This document shows, in pieces, positions 2,973 through 34,097 of a stretch of 34,979 nucleotides of DNA. This DNA comes from a virus. The DNA lies in the IMG/VR virus record IMGVR_UViG_3300021959_000171, positions 1 through 34,979 of that record, one strand, 5' to 3'. Both the position numbers and the translations under genes were made by a program. Numbering within the stretch: position 1 is the stretch's first letter; the number at the start of each line of letters is the position of its first letter. The notes under the pieces are model-generated. The model ran no database searches. It was not told the origin of the DNA and saw nothing but the letters and a program-made list of their open reading frames with translations.

Positions 2973-4008
2973 AGATCAAAAAGAGTTTTTAAGAGTTAAT
3001 TCTCAAGACATGCCAGATCTTATTGATTTGACCAAAAAATGCTTTGCCGATGAGTCTTTAGACGGCAGATCTAAAGAAGGTCGCGCTGTTCGTAAGTTTC
3101 TAGTAGAGAATTCTATCAAATTCAAAACAACAAGTAGAATACCTGCTGAAGTTATAAATTTAACAAAAGAGCAAGGAGAATTCATTTTGCAGCAAGCGGA
3201 AGAGGGGCTGTCTTCATTGGAGATAGCTAAGATAGTTTTCCCGTCTAGGAACGTGAAACCTCTGAGTTCTGAGCAACGTGTAGTTCTGGAAAAAATTAGA
3301 GAGGTTAACCCAGATATTTTACCGTCTCAAGATTCTGGAGCTTTAAATTCTTATATTTCTCCGAAATCTCCTTCGCGAATCATAAAAAAAATAAATGATG
3401 CTACAGGGCTAGTATTAAACGAGCAGAAGCTCAATAGGCAGAAACAAATTTGTATAGATAGGTTAAAAATAAACCTTTCTAACTCTAGATTTCTAAAAAT
3501 TATCAACAATTTTCTGAATGAAGAGGATAGGGTGTTGTTCGAACATGAATTTGTGAGACTAACATGGGATAAACCCGACTTAACCGCTGACGAATTAAAT
3601 CTTTATCTAAACGTCTGCAAAGAAGTTATAAATTTAGAAGTCATTAGCGCTCATCTTAATAAATTGAACAGCATGTTCGATGAGGCAGACGAGCAGCAAG
3701 AAATGTCTATCCGCTTAGCGGAAATCATCAAGACAAAGAGTAGCGAGTATCATCAGTGTGAAACCCGCATTGAGAACCTCACAAAGAAGCTTCAAGGCGA
3801 CAGGGGAGAGCGCATGAAGAAAATGCATAAGGAAAACGCATCTTTCCTGTCTATTGTCCAATTATTCCAAGAACAGGAAGAAAGAGAGACAATGGTCCGA
3901 ATAGCTGAGATGCAAAAAGAATCAATCAAAGAAGAAGCTGAAAGGCTTGAAGGAATGGCGGAATGGAAAGCTAGAGTTTTAGGAATAAGTCAAGAAGATG
4001 CAATTTAA
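2959..4008 (+). CDS. hypothetical protein, possible terminase small subunit
   Basis: I do not recognise this 349-residue protein by sequence. The ATG at 2959 is preferred to the GTG directly before it. The start overlaps the sigma-like gene by 14 bases and the end overlaps the nuclease gene by 11, so the run is translationally coupled. The N-terminal part has short helical segments that could include a helix-turn-helix (EEGLSSLEIAKIVFPSRNVK, residues about 80-100). Residues about 230-335 are charged and Glu/Lys/Gln-rich, with strong coiled-coil character. A DNA-binding N-terminus plus an oligomerising helical region just upstream of the large terminase would fit a small terminase subunit. That assignment rests on position and general architecture only. 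Confidence 0.45.
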   Translation: MELNKDQKEFLRVNSQDMPDLIDLTKKCFADESLDGRSKEGRAVRKFLVENSIKFKTTSRIPAEVINLTKEQGEFILQQAEEGLSSLEIAKIVFPSRNVKPLSSEQRVVLEKIREVNPDILPSQDSGALNSYISPKSPSRIIKKINDATGLVLNEQKLNRQKQICIDRLKINLSNSRFLKIINNFLNEEDRVLFEHEFVRLTWDKPDLTADELNLYLNVCKEVINLEVISAHLNKLNSMFDEADEQQEMSIRLAEIIKTKSSEYHQCETRIENLTKKLQGDRGERMKKMHKENASFLSIVQLFQEQEERETMVRIAEMQKESIKEEAERLEGMAEWKARVLGISQEDAI

Positions 4009-5014
4009 ATGTAAAGAGTGCGGTAGGGATTTTAAAAGCCGAAGAAGTTTGCATACTCATGTAAAAGCTCATGATTTATTTGTGGGAGACTATTATGTAA
4101 AATATTACCCACGTTTTGATAAGTTAACTCATCAAGCGATAGAGTATAAAAATTACGATCAGTATTTCGCTACTGACTTCATCAATATATCTAATATGAA
4201 AAAGTGGTGCGATCAGGCTCCGCGAGAAGAGGTTAGAGAATTTATAAAAAAGTCTTTAAAAGAAAAGCTGGGAGCCAAGGGCATTCAAGCAGGTCCACCG
4301 TCCACTTACCTACTAACGGGTGGTCTGCCCGATATTGACATCTGTAAACAGATGTTCGGCAGTTATCGTGAAACCTGTCAGCATATCGATATGCTCCCCA
4401 TGCTATCAGCGTCTTTACCAAAAGATTTTCAAAAAGATTATAGTGATACACCTATACTAATTGACACTAGGGAACAACAGCCATTATCTTTTATCAATTC
4501 TGACTCGTTGAAATTGGATGTGGGTGACTATGCCGTAGGGGGTGATCTATATGACTATACATTTGTGGATAGGAAGTCTTACCAGGATTTTTGCTCTACT
4601 ATTACAAATGGCTATTCGCGTTTTATAAAAGAGTTAGAAAGGTGCAGATCTATTGGTTGTTATCTTTATATAGTTACAGAAACAGCCTTCGATGATATGT
4701 GGGCCACCAATAAAAAAGGCTTCAAGAAGTTTAAACTAGATTATGTTTATCATCAGATGCGTTCTATACAATCTGAGTATACTGATTGCTGTCAATTTGT
4801 GTTTAGTGGTTCTAGAGAGAAAAGCGAGGAGCTTATACCCAAAATCCTTGTTTTAGGAAAGAAGCTCTGGGAAGTAGACCTTCAATATTTTTGGGACAAA
4901 GAAATTAAAAAAGATGGCTTGGGAAACAGGAAAACAGAAGCTCCACAGAGAGTACAAGGATATAAACAAACTCATTCTAGAAAAAGAGGGGTATTTAGAA
5001 GAAGCGGAAGCTAA
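3998..5014 (+). CDS. C2H2 zinc finger-ERCC4-type nuclease
   Basis: The 338-residue protein begins with a classic C2H2 finger (C5, C8, H21, H25: FKCKECGRDFKSRRSLHTHV). A linker of about 120 residues follows, then an ERCC4/XPF-family nuclease core. Its motifs are IDTREQQP (D156, R158, E159), DVGDY (D177) and FVDRK (D191, K193); the usual ERK triplet is replaced by DRK, which still keeps the acid and the lysine. XPF-type nucleases cut branched or structured DNA, so a role in resolving DNA before packaging, recombination or repair is plausible. The 3' end overlaps the large-terminase gene by 101 bases. The last 35 or so residues are therefore constrained by the other frame and read as basic, low-order sequence. 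Confidence 0.8.
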   Translation: MQFKCKECGRDFKSRRSLHTHVKAHDLFVGDYYVKYYPRFDKLTHQAIEYKNYDQYFATDFINISNMKKWCDQAPREEVREFIKKSLKEKLGAKGIQAGPPSTYLLTGGLPDIDICKQMFGSYRETCQHIDMLPMLSASLPKDFQKDYSDTPILIDTREQQPLSFINSDSLKLDVGDYAVGGDLYDYTFVDRKSYQDFCSTITNGYSRFIKELERCRSIGCYLYIVTETAFDDMWATNKKGFKKFKLDYVYHQMRSIQSEYTDCCQFVFSGSREKSEELIPKILVLGKKLWEVDLQYFWDKEIKKDGLGNRKTEAPQRVQGYKQTHSRKRGVFRRSGS

Positions 5015-19244: not shown

Positions 19245-22200
19245 ATGCCAATAAAAATACCAGTAGTACAAACAGGATTAGAAGCCAGCATTCAGGCAGC
19301 AGCTCAAAAAGCTGGGAAAAGCCTAAAGATTAATATGGGCAGTGGGGCCAAAAGTATTGAGGGACTATCTCAACCTTTGGGCCGTATTACAGGTAAGGCT
19401 GATCAGTTTACTAAATCTATGGAAGCTGCTAATGCTCGCGTGTTAGCATTTGGAGCTTCTGTTGGTGTACTTTCTGCAGTTACCAGAGGATTTCAAAATT
19501 TAGTTGTAACTACAATAGAGGTGGAAAAATCTCTAGCCAGTATTAATTCAATTTTAGGAACTAGTGACAAACAATTAAAGGATTTCGGTAAAACTATTTT
19601 TGATGTTGCCAAGAATACTGAACAATCATTCGATACAGTTGCAAATGCTGCTTTAGAGCTTAGCCGTCAAGGTTTGTCTGCTGAAGAAGTTCAAAAAAGA
19701 CTAAGTGACTCTTTAATATTAACCCGATTATCTGGTTTGGGTGCATCTGAAGCTGTTGCTGGATTAACTGCAGCTATTAACTCTTTTAACAAAGAGGGTC
19801 TTAGTAGTGCAGAAGTATTAAATAAATTATCTGCTGCTGCTGTATCTGCCGCTGTATCTGAAAGAGACTTGATTGAAGGTATTAAACGATCAGGTTCTGT
19901 TGCTGTTCAAGCTGGAGTTTCATTTGATGAATTGATCGGAGTTATAACAGCAGTTCAGAAAACAACAGCGCGAGGTGGCGCTGTTATTGGTAACTCTTTC
20001 AAAACTATATTTACTCGTATTCAGAGTATAGAAAAGTTGGAAACAATGCAGAATTTGGGAGTCCAAGTAACTGATGCTAGTGGACAAGTTTTAGGAGCTA
20101 CAAAGCTCATTCAAAATCTAGCTAAAGTTTTAGGAGACTTACCTGATGCAAAGAAACTACAAATCGCGGAAGGTTTAGTTGGTAAATTCCAAATTGCCCC
20201 TTTCTTAGCTATTTTAGAAGATTACAATAAAGAAACCTCCACAGCCATAGAAGTAACAAAAACGGCTTCTTCTGCTTTTAATGAAGCTTATTCTCGGAAT
20301 ATAGCTTTAAATGACACACTATCTGCTTCTATAAATAAAGCTACAGTAAACTTAAAAGAATTAGCTAATACTTTAGGTGAAATAGGAGTTACTGATAGTC
20401 TTAAAAATCTTTTAGGATTTTTTAATAGCTTAGTTGGTGACATTAAAGAAGTATTAGATGGAGAGGGTGTTGGTGGTGATATGGCTAGAGGGATAGTCAA
20501 AGGTATAAGCTCTGTTATTAGCGGTCCTGGGTTAGCTATATTTGGAGCTATCATTCTTAAACTTACCGCTGATCTTGCTAGATTCGGTGTTGGGTCTTTA
20601 AAAACATTTTTTGGTTTAAATAAAGCCGCACAACAACAAGCTACATTACAAGGCCAGATAGCTTCTACCCTACTGGGTAATGAAGGTATTCAAAAAGCGA
20701 TTTTAAATATAGAAAATCAACAAATAAGTGCTGAACAGAAGAAAGTATTACAGACTAAATTCTTTACTACAGCTTTAAATGAGCAATTGTCAGTAATGAC
20801 TAAGATGCAGTCTATTGCCACTAGAGTAGCTCCTGGGGTCATGCGTGGTACTAGAGGAGGTAGAGGTCGCGCTGCTGGAGGATTTATTCCTAATTACAAT
20901 GCTGTAGCTGGTTATGGATCAGAAAGATCAGATATCAGTAAAGGCGTAGGAGGCGCTCCTTCTTCAGCTAGACCAGTCACTATACCAAACTTTAATTTTG
21001 GAGGTGGACAAAAAGGGACAATGGTCGCTAACAGCAGCGAATATATAGTTCCAAACTTTGCAGGAGGTGACGGATCTGCAATTTTTAATCAAAATATGGT
21101 TTCCTCTATGGGCCTTCCCGCAGGAGCTAGGAAAATTGGAGCGGCTGGAGGCTATATACCTAATTTTGCTAAGACTGATCCTAAGTCTAAGTTCATAGAT
21201 TTTGCCGCTATGATCGTACCTCAAAAAAGAGGTAGAACTACTGCTAAAGGGAAATTTGGAGCAAATACATTTGAATTCCCAGTCTATGGTATAGATGCCG
21301 CAGGAGAAAAAGCTAGAGAAGAAAAAGAATTAAAAAATAGGATAGGTAAATATGCTATAAGCTTATCAAAATCTGAGGCTAAAAGTATGACGGGTGGTAA
21401 ACCTACATCTGGGAAAATTAATAAATTAGGTAACCAAGGCGCAATCGGTAGTTTAGCAGGTGCGGTTTTCGAAACCGCACTTAGTGCATTACTTAAAAGC
21501 CCAGACTTTGATTTCGGAGAAACAGGGACTTTTGATTATGTAGGTCGTAAAGCTGTAGATAACATATCGCAAATATCGCCATCTTTAAAAGGGTCCAAAG
21601 TTAATTATTTAGAAGCTAAAATAGGGTCTAACTATAAAAGTAATAATAGTATGGCCAAAAAAATTGTTGCTTTTTTTGGTAATAATCCTACAGGGAAAAA
21701 AGTTACTAGCCCAGCTCTTCAACAATTAACGGCAGGAGCAAACAAAGCGCAAGGAGGGCTTTCAGGCGCTAGCAGTGTGAAATCTAGCTTAGGTTTGTCT
21801 ACACGGGGTAGAACACCGACTTCAGCTGCAGGTTATATCCCTAATTTCGCTGGTGGATTAGGAGATGCAATAGCTAGAGAGTCTGCTGCAGGATTGCCAA
21901 TCAACCAGATTAGGATTAATCAAGACTCTAGTTTAAAGAACGCTGGTAACCCAATGGGGTTAGCTATCACTAACACTAGAGACGAACCTACTGGAGCTAT
22001 ACCAAACTTTGCTGATGGCATGAAGATAGGCGGAAGCGGATTTGCAGCGTCAGGAGTCGGACCCCGAACACCTGATCCTCCTAAACTCGCAGGATCGCTT
22101 TCGAATTTAACAAAATCTGTTAACCAATCTACAAAATCTATTAAAGCTACAACTCAAGCTAATAACAATAATGTAAAAGGCCAAAGAGATATGCTTGGTG

Positions 22201-25200
22201 GTATTTTTGCGACTCAAATTGCCTTTTCTGCTTTAAGCGGTGCTACTTCTGAAGTGCAAGAAGGATTTGGAAGATTTGTAAATAGATTTGCTAGTTTTGG
22301 CAGCTCTCTTACAACTGCAGCTTTCGCAGGTAGTGCTATAAATGATTTTGGAAACTCGATAGGAGGCAAAACAGGTGGTATCATAAGTAAATTAGGCCTT
22401 TTCGGAGCAGCGCTTGGAGGTATTACCGCTGCTGTCAAATTTGGGTCAAGCGTTTACGAGGATATGTCGGGTATAACTGATAATACCAAGACAGGAATAG
22501 CTGCGTTAGGTGATGCTTCAGCGTCAGCAGCTAGGAAACTTCAGAGCTTAAGTCAAATAGAACAAAAACAACTGACAGACGAGGCTAATAGGTTAGTGGG
22601 TAGTACCAAAGGTGCTAAAGTTATGGCAGATTTAATATCTAAAATACAAAGCCCAGGCGCGATGGTTGAAAAACAGTTTCTTGAGGGTGATTATGCTCCT
22701 TACGGTGGAGGAAGGCGAAGGAGAGTCACTAGAAACGTTCTTGAGAAACAAAATCTTTCTTTTGAAGGCTCTCAGACAAAGGATATATTATCAGGAGCTA
22801 TCGCTGAAGCGAGAGCTGGTGGAAGAACTATCGAGTCGATAGAAGAAGAACTTGCTCGTTTAGGAATGAGGCAAAAAGGAGGGGAGGATATAAAAGAAGG
22901 AGAAGAAGGCTTTAGATTCAGAATAGATTCTGAAGAGTTGGCATTATTCGCTGAATTTTTAAAAGAAACCAATGGTTTATTGCCGAAATTAAGAACTCAA
23001 TTAAAAGATGTAGACTTAACATTTGGATTGGGTCCAAATTTACAAGGGCCACCAGACCAAAGAAAAATGGATGAATTTGTAAAAAACAAAGCTAAAAAAC
23101 TTAATATAGACGAAGATGCAGCTAGGGCTGTTATATTAGAAGAACAAGCATTACAAATCAAAGAGGGTGCATTAAAGGTAACAAAACAAGAGGAGACGCT
23201 AGAAAGAGCAATAGCTTCTATTGCAAAAGAAAAAATAAAAGATGCTGTAGAAAGAGTAAAAGCTGAAACTGGGGTCTTGGACGCTATAGATACTCAAATC
23301 TTAGCTGCTGAAACTAGAGGTGATTTGACAAAAACTGAATTAAATTCTCTTAGAGAACAAAGAGTAGAGATAGATGCAAACTTAAAGAATAGGAACGCTA
23401 CTGTTAATGCTGTTGGTCAAATAGTTGATAAGAGTAGAGAATTAACTTTTATAGAAGGAATTAGCAACGGATTACAGGAAAAGTTAAATCAGATAGTCCA
23501 ATCAGGAACAGCCACAGAAGAAGACAGAGTTAAAGTCCTTGAGATGGCTAATAAACTTTTAGAAGAAAATGATGAATCAGTGAAAGCGGCTCTGGTTCCA
23601 ATTATTAATGCACTTGATCGAGAAAAAGATAGGGTAGATGCAGCAAAAAAACTACTGGATGTAAATAGAGATATCACTTTTGAAATCACGCAGCAAAAAG
23701 CGGCTATGGATGCCGCCCTTATTAGGTCAGGGACTGCTGATGAAAATGCTAGCGTTAGCAGGGAGATTTTATTGTCTAAAAAAATAGCAAGAGGACAATT
23801 AGCTATAGCTCAAGGGTCTAATGACCCTTTAAATATAAATGAAACTAGAGGGAGAGCTGTTTCAAATGCTATTTCAGAAAGAGGTATTGCTTCTCTAGAG
23901 AATGAGAGAGATACCATTACAAGAGAAAGAAATCAAAGAGAACAATTCAGAAGTCTTTTGGAAAATCCTATAATAAAAGGACAAATGTCTAAATTAGGAG
24001 ATTCTGACGTTAATGAAATCATGGAATCAATAAACGGATTGAAAGGAGGCGATATAATTGCCGAATTCAAAAAATTGTCTAAAAATTTAGCTGAATTTGG
24101 TGAAAGGAAGGGGGACAAAACATTCAATCTGTTAGCTGCAGAAGTAGAAAAAACTACATCACAACTTATTAATAATAACAGTATAGCCAAACAAGCTGCT
24201 GACGCTAATCTAGAATTAGCGGATGCTGCGATAAAAGCTGCTGGCAAACTTGGGGATTTAAGCTTTGATCAACTTGTGGGAGATATGGTCACTAACCTGA
24301 CATCTCCCCAAAATATTGCTCAAGCAAGAATAGACGCTTTAACCTCTACTGATCCTACAGCTAGAGCTAAATTTAACATATCAGAAGGAAATAGAGCTGC
24401 GAAGGCAACGGCTTTAGGTAAAAAAACCGATCAGGGGTTAATGGAATTTGCTGATATCGTAAGAGAAGAAGAATTTTCAGCTCAGTTAATAGATGCATCA
24501 GCTCAGTTTGCTCAGAATATAGGAAATGCAATGACTCAAGCTATTGCTAATGGTGAGAATCTTAAAGATTTACTTTTAGGTGCAGCTTCGGGCTTCTTCA
24601 ATACTCTATCTCAAGCTTTTATGCAGAAAGCTGTAAATAATATAGTATCTGGATTCAATGCTGGAGGAAAAGTAAGAGGTGGTTCTGGTAATCGAGATGA
24701 CGTGCCAGCGTTACTGACTGGCGGAGAATTCGTAATGAAGAAGAGTTCTGTTAATAAATACGGATCTTCTTTCATGGCGGCTTTGAATTCAGGTGCTGTT
24801 CCTACAATGCAAAGAGGAGGGTTATTCACCCCAGGAACCTACGGACAAGGGGCAATGAAAGGTAAAGATAATTTACTAGATTTTGCCACTCAAGGTTTTA
24901 CTACTGGTAACTTTGATAAAACAAGAGGAGGTTCAGGATTTGCTTCTGTAAACTTAGCTCCTCAAAGTGCAGCACTAACTATGTTTGGGCGGAGGAATAG
25001 CCCAGCATTCCAGAGGGAGCAAGCTTCTAAGGAGGCAGCGTTTGGTTTGTTCACTCAGCAAGCTAATAAAGAGGCAGAACTTAAAGAGCGAAATGCTATG
25101 GCAAAAAAAGGTCTGCTAGCATCTTTAGGTTCAGCTTTATTCTCTTTTGGATTTAACAGCCTTACTGATCTATTCTCCAAGAAAGCTACAGGCGGTTCTA

Positions 25201-25553
25201 TACCTTATACTTCTGGAGTAGACACAGTGCCAACAATGTTGTCTGGCGGTGAGTTCGTCATGAACGCTGCTGCGACCCAGAGAATTGGTAGAGGTAATTT
25301 AAACGCTCTTAACTCAGGGGGTGGTGGAGGATCTGGAGACGTAGTAGGTAAACTTGATGAACTTATTTCTGTTTCTGATAACTCTGGAGAAACCATAATT
25401 AATATCACCGTCAACTCTGATGGGTCATCCAACTCTCAAGGTAACGGAGACGATCAACAGAATTCATTGGCGACTAAGATAAAAGATGTGGTTAGACAAG
25501 TAATAGATGACGAGAAAAGACTAGGAGGATCACTAAGACAAGCTAGAGCATAA
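19245..25553 (+). CDS. tape measure protein with IPNF repeats and an embedded nuclease-like domain
   Basis: At 2102 residues this is by far the longest gene and has tape-measure layout. Residues about 40-400 match the conserved N-terminal region of phage tape measures (KSLASINSILGTSD, DVAKNTEQSFDTVANAALEL, ARGGAVIGNSFKTIFTRIQS). Hydrophobic segments lie near 427-445 and 1043-1068. Residues about 1080-1790 are long charged helices. The C-terminus has two copies of a motif common in tape measures: VPALLTGGEFVM at 1820 and VPTMLSGGEFVM at 1995. Unusual is residues 543-925: six I/V-P-N-F/Y motifs at 548, 580, 602, 638, 865 and 919, with a PD-(D/E)XK-like domain between the fourth and fifth (E743, D764, E790, K792). 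Tape measures set tail length, and this one would suggest a tail of roughly 300 nm if fully helical, though the inserted domain lowers that. It ends in TAATG, overlapping the next start. Confidence 0.9.
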   Translation: MPIKIPVVQTGLEASIQAAAQKAGKSLKINMGSGAKSIEGLSQPLGRITGKADQFTKSMEAANARVLAFGASVGVLSAVTRGFQNLVVTTIEVEKSLASINSILGTSDKQLKDFGKTIFDVAKNTEQSFDTVANAALELSRQGLSAEEVQKRLSDSLILTRLSGLGASEAVAGLTAAINSFNKEGLSSAEVLNKLSAAAVSAAVSERDLIEGIKRSGSVAVQAGVSFDELIGVITAVQKTTARGGAVIGNSFKTIFTRIQSIEKLETMQNLGVQVTDASGQVLGATKLIQNLAKVLGDLPDAKKLQIAEGLVGKFQIAPFLAILEDYNKETSTAIEVTKTASSAFNEAYSRNIALNDTLSASINKATVNLKELANTLGEIGVTDSLKNLLGFFNSLVGDIKEVLDGEGVGGDMARGIVKGISSVISGPGLAIFGAIILKLTADLARFGVGSLKTFFGLNKAAQQQATLQGQIASTLLGNEGIQKAILNIENQQISAEQKKVLQTKFFTTALNEQLSVMTKMQSIATRVAPGVMRGTRGGRGRAAGGFIPNYNAVAGYGSERSDISKGVGGAPSSARPVTIPNFNFGGGQKGTMVANSSEYIVPNFAGGDGSAIFNQNMVSSMGLPAGARKIGAAGGYIPNFAKTDPKSKFIDFAAMIVPQKRGRTTAKGKFGANTFEFPVYGIDAAGEKAREEKELKNRIGKYAISLSKSEAKSMTGGKPTSGKINKLGNQGAIGSLAGAVFETALSALLKSPDFDFGETGTFDYVGRKAVDNISQISPSLKGSKVNYLEAKIGSNYKSNNSMAKKIVAFFGNNPTGKKVTSPALQQLTAGANKAQGGLSGASSVKSSLGLSTRGRTPTSAAGYIPNFAGGLGDAIARESAAGLPINQIRINQDSSLKNAGNPMGLAITNTRDEPTGAIPNFADGMKIGGSGFAASGVGPRTPDPPKLAGSLSNLTKSVNQSTKSIKATTQANNNNVKGQRDMLGGIFATQIAFSALSGATSEVQEGFGRFVNRFASFGSSLTTAAFAGSAINDFGNSIGGKTGGIISKLGLFGAALGGITAAVKFGSSVYEDMSGITDNTKTGIAALGDASASAARKLQSLSQIEQKQLTDEANRLVGSTKGAKVMADLISKIQSPGAMVEKQFLEGDYAPYGGGRRRRVTRNVLEKQNLSFEGSQTKDILSGAIAEARAGGRTIESIEEELARLGMRQKGGEDIKEGEEGFRFRIDSEELALFAEFLKETNGLLPKLRTQLKDVDLTFGLGPNLQGPPDQRKMDEFVKNKAKKLNIDEDAARAVILEEQALQIKEGALKVTKQEETLERAIASIAKEKIKDAVERVKAETGVLDAIDTQILAAETRGDLTKTELNSLREQRVEIDANLKNRNATVNAVGQIVDKSRELTFIEGISNGLQEKLNQIVQSGTATEEDRVKVLEMANKLLEENDESVKAALVPIINALDREKDRVDAAKKLLDVNRDITFEITQQKAAMDAALIRSGTADENASVSREILLSKKIARGQLAIAQGSNDPLNINETRGRAVSNAISERGIASLENERDTITRERNQREQFRSLLENPIIKGQMSKLGDSDVNEIMESINGLKGGDIIAEFKKLSKNLAEFGERKGDKTFNLLAAEVEKTTSQLINNNSIAKQAADANLELADAAIKAAGKLGDLSFDQLVGDMVTNLTSPQNIAQARIDALTSTDPTARAKFNISEGNRAAKATALGKKTDQGLMEFADIVREEEFSAQLIDASAQFAQNIGNAMTQAIANGENLKDLLLGAASGFFNTLSQAFMQKAVNNIVSGFNAGGKVRGGSGNRDDVPALLTGGEFVMKKSSVNKYGSSFMAALNSGAVPTMQRGGLFTPGTYGQGAMKGKDNLLDFATQGFTTGNFDKTRGGSGFASVNLAPQSAALTMFGRRNSPAFQREQASKEAAFGLFTQQANKEAELKERNAMAKKGLLASLGSALFSFGFNSLTDLFSKKATGGSIPYTSGVDTVPTMLSGGEFVMNAAATQRIGRGNLNALNSGGGGGSGDVVGKLDELISVSDNSGETIINITVNSDGSSNSQGNGDDQQNSLATKIKDVVRQVIDDEKRLGGSLRQARA
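21424..21680 (+). other. putative PD-(D/E)XK nuclease-like domain inside the tape measure
   Basis: Residues about 727-812 read as an alpha-beta-beta-beta unit with the spacing of a restriction-endonuclease-like core. A helix, SLAGAVFETALSALLK, carries E743. A strand, GTFDYVGR, carries D764. A second strand, KVNYLEAKIGS, carries E790-A-K792, the E-x-K signature. A Lys/Ser/Asn-rich helix follows. Flanking sequence is Gly/Ala-rich linker with IPNF motifs, so the unit looks like a discrete cargo domain. This is motif reading by eye. A fold comparison would be needed to confirm it. Confidence 0.5.
21460..21480. repeat. perfect 9-bp inverted repeat inside the tape-measure gene
   Basis: GTGCGGTTT, a TCG centre, and AAACCGCAC form a perfect GC-rich hairpin. 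It encodes part of the helix that carries E743. No T-run follows on either strand, so it is not a terminator. It is unusually stable for this AT-rich genome, but may be chance. Confidence 0.5.
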
Positions 25554-31342: not shown

Positions 31343-31410
31343 ATGAAAACAAAATCCTTTTTGTCAAGAAAAAAAAATTGTGAAAATACTCTTGCCTCTG
31401 AGCAGTGCTG

Positions 31411-31419
31411 AGTGTAAAA
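31411..31419 (+). promoter_or_regulatory. AGTGTAA leader element before nrdB
   Basis: AGTGTAAAA has its core ending 11 bases before the ATG at 31429, which it supports over the GTG at 31405. Confidence 0.5.
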
Positions 31420-31428
31420 TTCTTTAAC

Positions 31429-32454
31429 ATGATTGCTGAAGAAAAAACAGATGAGATGGCTACGGGAAATACAAATAAAAAACTCATTTTTGAAGAGCAG
31501 TTATCTAGAAAACCTGACCAATTTCCTTGGGCGCAAGACTTTATTGACGCTATGCATCAGGGGTTCTGGACAGATAAAGAATTTAGCTTCAGCAGTGACA
31601 TCCAAGACTTCAATGTCAATTTAAATCCTACAGAAAAAGAAATCATCGTAAGGACTCTTTCGGCTATTGGCCAGATCGAAGTGGCTGTTAAGAAGTTTTG
31701 GAGTAAGCTGGGAGACAATTTACCTCACCCTAGCCTTACCGATCTCGGATATGTCATGGCAAACACAGAAGTTATCCACAACAATGCCTACGAGAGGCTG
31801 TTGACGGTTCTAGGTTTAGAAGAAGTCTTTGAAGAGAATCTTAAACTTGATTTCATAGAAGGTCGTGTAAAATACCTCAGAAAATACAACCATAAGTTCT
31901 ACAAAGATTCTAAAAAACAATATGTTTATGCCTTAACCCTATTCACTCTTTTTGTTGAGAACGTGTCGCTTTTTTCCCAATTTTACATCATTAATTGGTT
32001 CAATCGTAACCGAAATGTTTTAAAGGATACTGGTCAGCAAGTCAAATATACTCGTAATGAGGAAAACATTCACGCTTTGGCTGGGATTAAAATCATTAAC
32101 ACTATTCGCAGCCAATATCCTGAGTTGTTTGATGATGAGCTTGAAGAGCGTATTCTTTCTGAGGCTCAAGCGGCTTTTACCGCAGAGAGTAATATAGTAG
32201 ATTGGATGATAAATGGATTTGATAAAAAAGGATTGAATGCTGATATACTCAAGGAATTCATAAAAAACAGGATTAATGATTCCTTGGGAAAAATCGGCTT
32301 TCATTCTGCGTTTGAAGTTGACACTTCTTTGCTTAAAGATACAATGTGGTTCGAAGAAGAATTGATTGGTAATAATGCCACAGATTTCTTTCATTCGCGC
32401 CCTGTGGAATACTCTAAAAATTCACAGACCTTTAACGCAGACGAATTATTTTAA
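31429..32454 (+). CDS. nrdB: class I ribonucleotide reductase small subunit
   Basis: The start is the ATG at 31429 (MIAEEKTDEM, 341 residues); an in-frame GTG eight codons upstream overlaps the leader element. The ferritin-like diiron site is visible: E114 and H117 in TEVIHNNAY, E177 in LFVENVSLF, and E212 and H215 in EENIH. The radical tyrosine is Y121, at the same spacing from the H as in E. coli (H118/Y122). The first carboxylate seems to be E84 (SAIGQIEVAV) instead of the usual Asp. The C-terminal tail QTFNADELF is the normal NrdA-docking peptide. With NrdA it makes dNTPs for phage replication. The stop overlaps the NrdA start as TAATG. Confidence 0.95.
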   Translation: MIAEEKTDEMATGNTNKKLIFEEQLSRKPDQFPWAQDFIDAMHQGFWTDKEFSFSSDIQDFNVNLNPTEKEIIVRTLSAIGQIEVAVKKFWSKLGDNLPHPSLTDLGYVMANTEVIHNNAYERLLTVLGLEEVFEENLKLDFIEGRVKYLRKYNHKFYKDSKKQYVYALTLFTLFVENVSLFSQFYIINWFNRNRNVLKDTGQQVKYTRNEENIHALAGIKIINTIRSQYPELFDDELEERILSEAQAAFTAESNIVDWMINGFDKKGLNADILKEFIKNRINDSLGKIGFHSAFEVDTSLLKDTMWFEEELIGNNATDFFHSRPVEYSKNSQTFNADELF

Positions 32455-34097
32455 TGACTGATTACTATTGGCTAAATGAGGACTCAAGGATCTTTCTTGA
32501 GAGAGGTTATTTAAAAGGGGAGTCTCCAGAGCAGAGGGTCAAAGATATAGCTGATACTGCTGAAGGTTATCTAGGTATCTCTGGTTTCTCGGATAAATTT
32601 GTGGGTTATATGAAGCAGGGGTTTTACTCTCTAGCTTCTCCTGTATGGTCTAATTTTGGTCGTAAGAGAGGATTGCCTATTTCTTGTAACGGGGTATACG
32701 TCCCTGATAGAATGGATGGAATCCTCGCTAAACAAAGCGAAGTCGGTATGCAAACCAAACACGGTTCTGGAACTTCAGCTTACTTTGGAGAACTTCGCGG
32801 GAGAGGGGCTAAAATTAATTCAGGCGGAGAGTCTTCTGGTGCTGTCCATTTTATGGAGTTATTTGATAAGGTAGCCTCTGTTGTTTCTCAGGGCAATGTG
32901 AGAAGGGGATCGTTTGCTGCGTATCTTCCTATTGAACATCCTGACGTAAAAGAGTTTTTGCGTATTCGTAGTGAGGGTAATGCTATTCAAGAAATGTCTT
33001 TTGCAGTTACCGTAACTGATTCTTGGATGCAAGAAATGATTGATGGTGATAAAGATAAACGGGAACTCTGGATGAATGTGATCAAAAAGAGATATGAGAC
33101 TGGATACCCCTACATCTTTTTCCAAGATAACGCTAATAATCAAGCTCCAGATTGCTATAAAGATAAAGGGATGAAGATCTATGCTTCTAATCTGTGCAAT
33201 GAAATCAGCTTGCCATCTAAAGAAGATGAATCATTTGTTTGTTGTTTATCATCCCTAAACCTAGTTCAGTGGGACGAAATAGTAAAAACAGATGCTATAG
33301 AAACTCTTACAATGTTTCTCGATGCTGTTATGGAAGAGTATATTCAGAAGACTCAATGTATTCCATTTATGGAAGCTTCCCATAATTTTGCTAAACGCCA
33401 TAGGGCTATTGGTATGGGAGTTTTGGGTTGGCATTCTTATTTGCAGAGCAACATGATTAGTTTTGAAAGTATGGAGGCTAAACTACTAAATAGTTCAATC
33501 TTTAAGAGGATCAGAAAATCTAGTGATCGGGCTACAGAAGATCTAGCTAATCTTTTAGGCGAGCCATTGCATTGTCAAGGTTATGGCCGCAGGAATACTA
33601 CTACTTTAGCTATTGCCCCTACAACGAGTAGTTCATTTATTCTTGGGCAAGCTTCCCCTTCTATCGAACCTTTAAATGGCAATTACTTCACCAAAGATCT
33701 AGCCAAAGGCAAATTTCCTTATCGGAATCCTTACTTGAAGGCTTTGTTGGCTGAGAAAGGAAAGGATACAGATGACGTTTGGATTAGTATTTTAAATTCT
33801 GGTGGTTCAGTACAAAGACTCCCTTTTTTAAGTGAAGAAGAAAAAGACGTATTTAAAACTTTTGGAGAAATATCTCAAAAAGAAATTGTTATTCAAGCTG
33901 CTCAGAGGCAAAAATTCATAGACCAAGGTCAATCCCTTAATATAATGGTTCCACCAGAAACCCCTTTTAAAGAGGTTAATCAATTGATGATCTATGCTTG
34001 GGAAAATGGAGTAAAAGGTCTGTATTACCAAAGAAGTGCTAATCCTAGTCAAGAATTAGCGAGATCTATACTAAATTGCTCATCTTGCGAAGGTTAA
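32454..34097 (+). CDS. nrdA: class I ribonucleotide reductase large subunit, short form
   Basis: At 547 residues this is about 200 shorter than E. coli NrdA, and lacks the N-terminal ATP cone that senses dATP. The catalytic barrel is intact: C78 (PISCNG) and C263 or C264 (VCCLSSLNL) form the redox pair, and NLCNE (C248, E250) holds the radical cysteine and catalytic Glu. YYQRS near the C-terminus is the Tyr-Tyr radical-transfer pair. The tail ends CSSCEG, the shuttle cysteines reduced by thioredoxin or glutaredoxin. Specificity-loop sequence (GNVRRGSFAAYLPIEHPD) is present. Loss of the cone should remove dATP inhibition, which would suit a phage. It is coupled to NrdB by a one-base overlap. 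Confidence 0.95.
   Translation: MTDYYWLNEDSRIFLERGYLKGESPEQRVKDIADTAEGYLGISGFSDKFVGYMKQGFYSLASPVWSNFGRKRGLPISCNGVYVPDRMDGILAKQSEVGMQTKHGSGTSAYFGELRGRGAKINSGGESSGAVHFMELFDKVASVVSQGNVRRGSFAAYLPIEHPDVKEFLRIRSEGNAIQEMSFAVTVTDSWMQEMIDGDKDKRELWMNVIKKRYETGYPYIFFQDNANNQAPDCYKDKGMKIYASNLCNEISLPSKEDESFVCCLSSLNLVQWDEIVKTDAIETLTMFLDAVMEEYIQKTQCIPFMEASHNFAKRHRAIGMGVLGWHSYLQSNMISFESMEAKLLNSSIFKRIRKSSDRATEDLANLLGEPLHCQGYGRRNTTTLAIAPTTSSSFILGQASPSIEPLNGNYFTKDLAKGKFPYRNPYLKALLAEKGKDTDDVWISILNSGGSVQRLPFLSEEEKDVFKTFGEISQKEIVIQAAQRQKFIDQGQSLNIMVPPETPFKEVNQLMIYAWENGVKGLYYQRSANPSQELARSILNCSSCEG

Follow-up and report, generated by a model that had tools for sequence, protein, structure and literature searches.

Can the tape measure protein (TMP) of a marine phage carry an enzyme domain as cargo? 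The question is raised by IMG/VR virus record IMGVR_UViG_3300021959_000171, analyzed here as one stretch of 34,979 bases (the window), whose largest gene encodes a TMP of 2102 amino acids (aa). A sequence-only reading of positions 20871 to 22010, which correspond to TMP residues 543 to 922, had described six (I/V)PN(F/Y) motifs and, between the fourth and the fifth, a discrete domain that it took for a PD-(D/E)XK nuclease. From sequence comparisons and structure predictions, we conclude that IPNF638 and IPNF865 enclose a discrete, exchangeable, and catalytic-looking domain, with borders predicted to be flexible, inside the TMP; we refer to it as the cassette. On balance, we regard it as somewhat probable that the cassette is self-contained TMP cargo, most likely a Mg2+-dependent nuclease of the PD-(D/E)XK type, which would be ejected as an effector. 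The TMP gene, the motifs, and the parts that they delimit are the following.

19245 to 25553, plus strand: TMP gene, without Cys or His (open reading frame, PF10145, PHROG, composition)
20850 to 21155, plus strand: conserved module before the cassette, aa 536 to 637, containing the first three motifs
20886 to 20897, plus strand: IPNY motif, aa 548 to 551 (sequence)
20982 to 20993, plus strand: IPNF motif, aa 580 to 583 (sequence), within a predicted beta strand
21048 to 21059, plus strand: VPNF motif, aa 602 to 605 (sequence), partly in a predicted beta strand
21156 to 21167, plus strand: IPNF motif, aa 638 to 641, left border of the cassette
21168 to 21830, plus strand: exchangeable nuclease-like cassette, aa 642 to 862
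21837 to 21848, plus strand: IPNF motif, aa 865 to 868, right border of the cassette
21837 to 22019, plus strand: conserved module after the cassette, aa 865 to 925, ending in IPNF919

Exchange of the cassette between phages

All six motifs were found where the sequence-only reading had placed them (IPNY548, IPNF580, VPNF602, IPNF638, IPNF865, and IPNF919), compared to an expectation of 0.019 from the composition of the protein. Near relatives have IPNF motifs at about residues 548, 580, 602, and 638, the next 220 to 300 aa further on and the last about 55 aa beyond that. Compared to the window, 48 relatives had a median identity of 74% in the module before the cassette and 77% in the module after it, against 20.8% within the cassette itself. 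Identity of at least 80% before the cassette was shared by 123 TMP pairs, 74 of which were less than 30% identical inside it; conversely, TMP pairs with 63 to 68% identity before the cassette had cassettes that were 52 to 60% identical. In one pair of loci, L032 and L070, identity was 93% before the cassette, 10% within it, and 98% after it. A blastn comparison of this pair placed the end of DNA homology at 2717/9883, no more than 3 nucleotides from the IPNF codons, and its restart about 25 nucleotides ahead of the next IPNF codons, and the same DNA pattern was observed between L031 and L070. The codons of the two bordering IPNF motifs, which the sequence-only reading had proposed as possible docking or cleavage sites, mark the exchange points, and these sequence comparisons indicate that the cassette is exchanged as one unit. 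In the compared parts of L032 and L070, the neighboring downstream DNA was homologous, and no co-exchanged immunity gene was seen next to the cassette there. A 2023 survey of mosaicism by Smug et al. flagged TMPs by sequence and left a genuine recent case unconfirmed (PMC10684548); L031 and L032 compared to L070 are recent cases of TMP mosaicism of the kind that survey could not confirm.

The domain is also widely kept, being present in 40 of the 42 TMPs that were found by their N terminus. In one of the two exceptions, L065, the preceding module is kept and both the cassette and its bordering IPNF motifs are absent, and in the other, L071, other IPNF-delimited segments are found instead. The L065 protein belongs to the same family, is 2166 aa long, and represents a natural empty form. 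A hidden Markov model of the cassette, built from near relatives, also detected the domain in TMPs outside its training set (for example, with E values of 9.5e-25 for L048 and 5.4e-23 for L053). Ratios of nonsynonymous to synonymous substitution rates within cassette types were 0.16 to 0.66, with cassettes mostly evolving faster than their flanks, and as far as sequences can tell the cassette types evolve under purifying selection.

Finding relatives of the cassette required a profile and the flanking modules rather than a single-sequence search, which returned only one near-identical IMG/VR contig and no match in 50,697 phage records. Scans of IMG/VR with TMP residues 1 to 505 and with a nine-sequence cassette profile gave 73 and 54 loci, respectively. 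The conserved modules around the cassette, used in a further scan, brought up 235 relatives, of which 80 were kept. No similarity to the cassette or to the conserved modules was detectable in those 50,697 records, which represent cultured phages. Members of the cassette family lie on contigs (L127 and L128) binned into metagenome-assembled genomes of Flavobacteriaceae and Verrucomicrobiales, a weak hint at hosts.

We modeled the cassette with AlphaFold2 (AF2) from an alignment of 67 sequences with a mean column identity of 18%. The resulting model had a predicted local distance difference test score (pLDDT) of 85.3 and a predicted template modeling score of 0.78, in keeping with the discrete domain that had been proposed between the fourth and fifth motifs. 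It begins with three strands, followed by helices at 56-79, 85-91, and 94-112. In a second AF2 model, spanning aa 536 to 940, the same cassette domain appeared, and aa 536 to 637 formed a separate beta-rich unit that includes IPNF580 and VPNF602. IPNF638 and IPNF865 fell in segments of the second model with a pLDDT below 50, so the bordering motifs are predicted to be disordered linkers outside the domain rather than ordinary parts of one continuous domain, a possibility that the sequence-only reading had allowed for.

The putative active site and competing explanations

We asked whether the cassette retains residues expected of a nuclease despite its divergence. The residues that the sequence-only reading had singled out (E743, D764, and E790-A-K792) were present as described and proved to be among the most conserved positions of the cassette in homologues, together with G732, G739, and K806; in the 48 relatives, the highest-conserved positions were D764, G739, G732, K806, K792, and E743. 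Counts were made over 79 nonredundant homologous cassettes (at most 90% identity).

21459 to 21461, plus strand: G739, conserved Gly before E743 (78 of 79 cassettes)
21471 to 21473, plus strand: E743, leading acidic residue of the putative active site (75 E, 3 D, 1 Q)
21534 to 21536, plus strand: D764, putative metal ligand (79 of 79)
21612 to 21614, plus strand: E790 of the (D/E)xK motif (E in 47, D in 32)
21618 to 21620, plus strand: K792 of the (D/E)xK motif (79 of 79)
21660 to 21662, plus strand: K806, conserved Lys in the helix that follows (77 of 79)

Within the domain, near-invariance is confined to this E-D-(D/E)xK set. An alignment-free regular expression, G-x(2,3)-(F/Y)E ... D ... 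(D/E)xK, matched 74 of the 79 cassettes in its strict form, compared to a mean of 1.1 and a maximum of 5 over 300 rounds of shuffling, and the pattern is therefore beyond chance. Taken one by one, these residues lie on predicted elements of the kind expected in a PD-(D/E)XK enzyme. The first-helix acid has its counterpart in E743, within helix 94-112 (E or D in 78/79), and the Asp at a strand start has its counterpart in D764, just ahead of a short strand. That strand is followed by a helix, then by strand 151-154, which is predicted to carry or adjoin E790 and K792 (both conserved in character in 79/79), and then by helix 160-174 with K806. By sequence, the cassette bears the residue signature of the PD-(D/E)XK nuclease superfamily; its fold is unconfirmed, since the model found no match in PDB or BFVD. 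The interpretation of the sequence-only reading is thus supported in part: the residue signature stands, and neither a PDB structure nor a nuclease family was matched.

Several observations weigh against a nuclease of this superfamily. Foldseek searches of PDB and BFVD (best E value, 0.29) and VIA-align (Z at most 3.0) returned weak GTPase-like or unrelated chains, with no PD-(D/E)XK enzyme among the matches listed, and Pfam, PHROG, and PADLOC gave no nuclease match for the cassette. The predicted strand order, with three N-terminal strands first, departs from the textbook PD-(D/E)XK order, and the spacing of 25 from D to ExK is long. A second nuclease-like TMP segment (A4; L048:9915-10784, L051:9921-10748, and relatives), with G..GE, FD, ExK, and LKK motifs, has a spacing nearer the textbook than that of the cassette; a profile comparison of the cassette with A4 was not significant, aligning the E and D motifs at a score like that of one of the 20 decoys. 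Furthermore, neither an immunity gene nor a target gene for the cassette came to light, and all relatives are from metagenome contigs or metagenome-assembled genomes. Searches of PDB sequences with the cassette, by phmmer and by profile, gave only chance matches and were set aside.

Given a confident AF2 model with no PDB or BFVD match and no match to a nuclease family, the cassette might instead be an enzyme whose alpha/beta fold has yet to be described and whose acidic/Lys metal site is convergent. Such an enzyme would remain TMP cargo and might act on nucleotides, proteins, or membranes. We consider this unlikely, though worth keeping in view, since E-D-(D/E)xK, preceded at ExK by a hydrophobic strand and followed by a helix bearing a Lys, is the nuclease signature, and since structure and sequence searches are known to miss PD-(D/E)XK folds and profiles often overlook the superfamily. 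A quite improbable alternative is a noncatalytic role: the cassette would be a specificity domain that matches the TMP to whichever inner-membrane protein of the host serves DNA entry, as happens with lambda gpH and ManYZ, and cassette variability would mirror differences among host proteins. Regions of lambda-like TMPs do set an inner-membrane requirement and are recognized by the host nuclease SNIPE (PMC13190303), and close relatives do swap cassettes; however, a binding role would not explain why D764, K792, and acidity at position 790 persist in every one of the 79 cassettes amid change elsewhere, and L065 dispenses with the whole segment.

Whole-cassette exchange with borders at conserved DNA would also be expected of a selfish homing-type nuclease lodged in frame in the TMP gene and spreading by cutting other TMP alleles during coinfection, and TMP genes are often interrupted by homing endonuclease genes, as in ICP1 (PMC10448857). 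We give this very little credence, since the domain is in frame and nearly universal among the 42 TMPs rather than patchy, and since dissimilar alleles swap with each other while empty sites are not filled. No Cys and no HN(C/S/T) occur anywhere in the TMP, so there is no intein junction, and no Rfam intron match was found; an intron or intein explanation was rejected on these grounds. Least probable of all, in our judgment, is that the motif conservation is an effect of alignment and the segment an ordinary fast-evolving part of the TMP. TMPs are fast evolving and poorly alignable, and TMP mosaic signals have been suspected to be artifacts (PMC10684548), yet the regular expression is independent of alignment, the flanks are highly conserved, the domain is confidently predicted, and the cassette borders are sharp in DNA. 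Together, the DNA borders, the residue counts over 79 cassettes, and the regular expression test contradict such an effect.

How might a nuclease cassette operate from within a TMP? During DNA entry, TMPs are known to exit the virion and arrive at the inner membrane, where lambda gpH has been labeled (PMC13190303). We envision that the TMP is packed in the tail tube with the cassette between flexible linkers, where it would be inactive or shielded by tail-assembly chaperones. At infection, the TMP would exit via the tail tip and cross the envelope, which would bring the cassette to the inner membrane or cytoplasm as DNA entry begins. There it might cut nucleic acid of the host, or DNA or RNA belonging to resident elements or to a defense system, and selection by a variable host inhibitor or target may have diversified its surface and driven its exchange.

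Possible cargo in related tape measure proteins and similar systems

The sequence-only reading had suggested looking for other domains between IPNF motifs in related TMPs, and such domains were found. Distant TMPs of about 2500 to 4000 aa each contain several IPNF-delimited segments. One of these, L124, qualifies as a TMP through 33.5% identity across 865 aa. Between two VPNF motifs of this 3513-aa protein (L124:9294-10730) lies a segment of the CCA-adding enzyme/poly(A) polymerase type (PF01743, E value of 9.8e-15), which also matched poly(A) polymerase and CCA-adding enzymes in PDB with E values of 2e-15 to 4e-15; L124 is the single example of this segment found in a TMP. A P-loop-like segment, also IPNF delimited and weakly supported, occurs at L108:7509-8012 (motif GPAGSGKST) and L113:3319-3816, directly preceding the nuclease-like cassette. 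In distant TMPs, a weak likeness to ART, GNAT, and kinase domains was noted by eye, with weak or no Pfam support; such domains are not claimed here.

It is possible, and we put this forward tentatively, that the TMPs of this group are general cargo carriers, in which IPNF-bordered sites accept interchangeable enzyme domains that are ejected as first effectors and swapped at IPNF codons as hosts counter them. The cargo would include nuclease-like, CCA-adding-type nucleotidyltransferase, P-loop, and other kinds. If this is true, the TMP of long-tailed phages, already taken to exit the virion ahead of or together with the DNA, would also be an enzyme delivery vehicle, so that the phage could act on the host before phage genes are expressed. 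Such a role would explain some of the rapid, mosaic evolution of TMPs. It would further point to a route by which TMP-related effectors of contractile injection systems arose from phage TMPs, and laboratory phages would gain a modular site for studies of protein delivery.

Effector-bearing proteins related to TMPs are known in contractile injection systems. The effector Tme of the Streptomyces davawensis contractile injection system is TMP related and has a proven nuclease domain (PMC11126660), and it thus resembles the window TMP in being a TMP-like protein of a tail-like machine with a fused nuclease domain, one whose activity has been shown. Unlike the window cassette, which is internal and has E-D-ExK residues, Tme is not a phage protein and its nuclease is C terminal and of the EndA/DRGH type; the DRGH motif is absent from the window TMP, which has no His. 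Sle1, of actinobacterial contractile systems, likewise represents reconfigurable TMP-related effectors, in which a carrier has diverse, exchangeable functional domains (PMC13277306). That system, however, is host encoded and contractile, its functional domain is C terminal (Sle1-C), and the parts of PMC13277306 consulted describe no IPNF-bordered internal site.

Polyvalent proteins are large, multidomain, and thought to be coinjected with DNA, with ART, GNAT, and kinase domains among their parts (Iyer et al. 2017, PMC5512222), and the distant TMP relatives of the window look similar in kind. Polyvalent proteins differ in that their description concerns proteins packaged in heads or transferred by conjugation (PMC5512222 nowhere uses the word "tape") and in having several effector domains, whereas the window TMP has one recognized cargo domain. 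TMPs with peptidoglycan hydrolase domains, such as SPbeta YomI, annotated as a transglycosylase in some records, also hold an enzyme domain within a phage TMP, but those enzymes target the cell wall during penetration, while the window cassette has residues for nucleic acid hydrolysis. Finally, SNIPE is a nuclease stationed at the DNA entry site via TMP contact, but it is a bacterial membrane defense nuclease that cuts phage DNA (PMC13190303), whereas the nuclease-like domain of the window belongs to the phage TMP. In the open-license papers searched, "tape measure protein" and "IPNF" were not found together, nor was a description of such cassettes in phage TMPs, and prior work may exist elsewhere.

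The tape measure gene and its surroundings

By its sequence, the 2102-aa protein is a TMP: it has the core domain, is the largest tail gene product, and is encoded upstream of minor tail genes. It also matches several PHROG "tail length tape measure" families, and a PF05939 minor-tail match, just below its cutoff, lies two genes 3' of the TMP gene. Two further features of the protein precede the modules described above.

19596 to 20183, plus strand: PhageMin_Tail domain, aa 118 to 313 (Pfam PF10145, E value of 1.2e-27)
20502 to 20570, plus strand: most hydrophobic stretch of the TMP, aa 420 to 442 (Kyte-Doolittle, mean of 1.85 over 19 aa)

The hydrophobic stretch is a possible membrane segment. 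The composition of the protein is also unusual in that neither Cys nor His occurs in its 2102 aa. The 29 near TMPs likewise have no Cys and very little His or Trp, compared to 0.88% Cys in the other proteins of the window, and no Cys occurs in the 3513 aa of the L124 TMP, its CCA-type domain included. The absence of Cys suggests that cargo and carrier are under one shared constraint, perhaps that of threading through the tube or envelope.

Elsewhere in the window, positions 3998 to 5014 encode a C2H2 zinc finger joined to a nuclease domain of the ERCC4/XPF type and overlap the beginning of the terminase open reading frame. The same contig also encodes the small and large subunits of ribonucleotide reductase and a PhoH-like protein (31405 to 34097 and 1140 to 1856).
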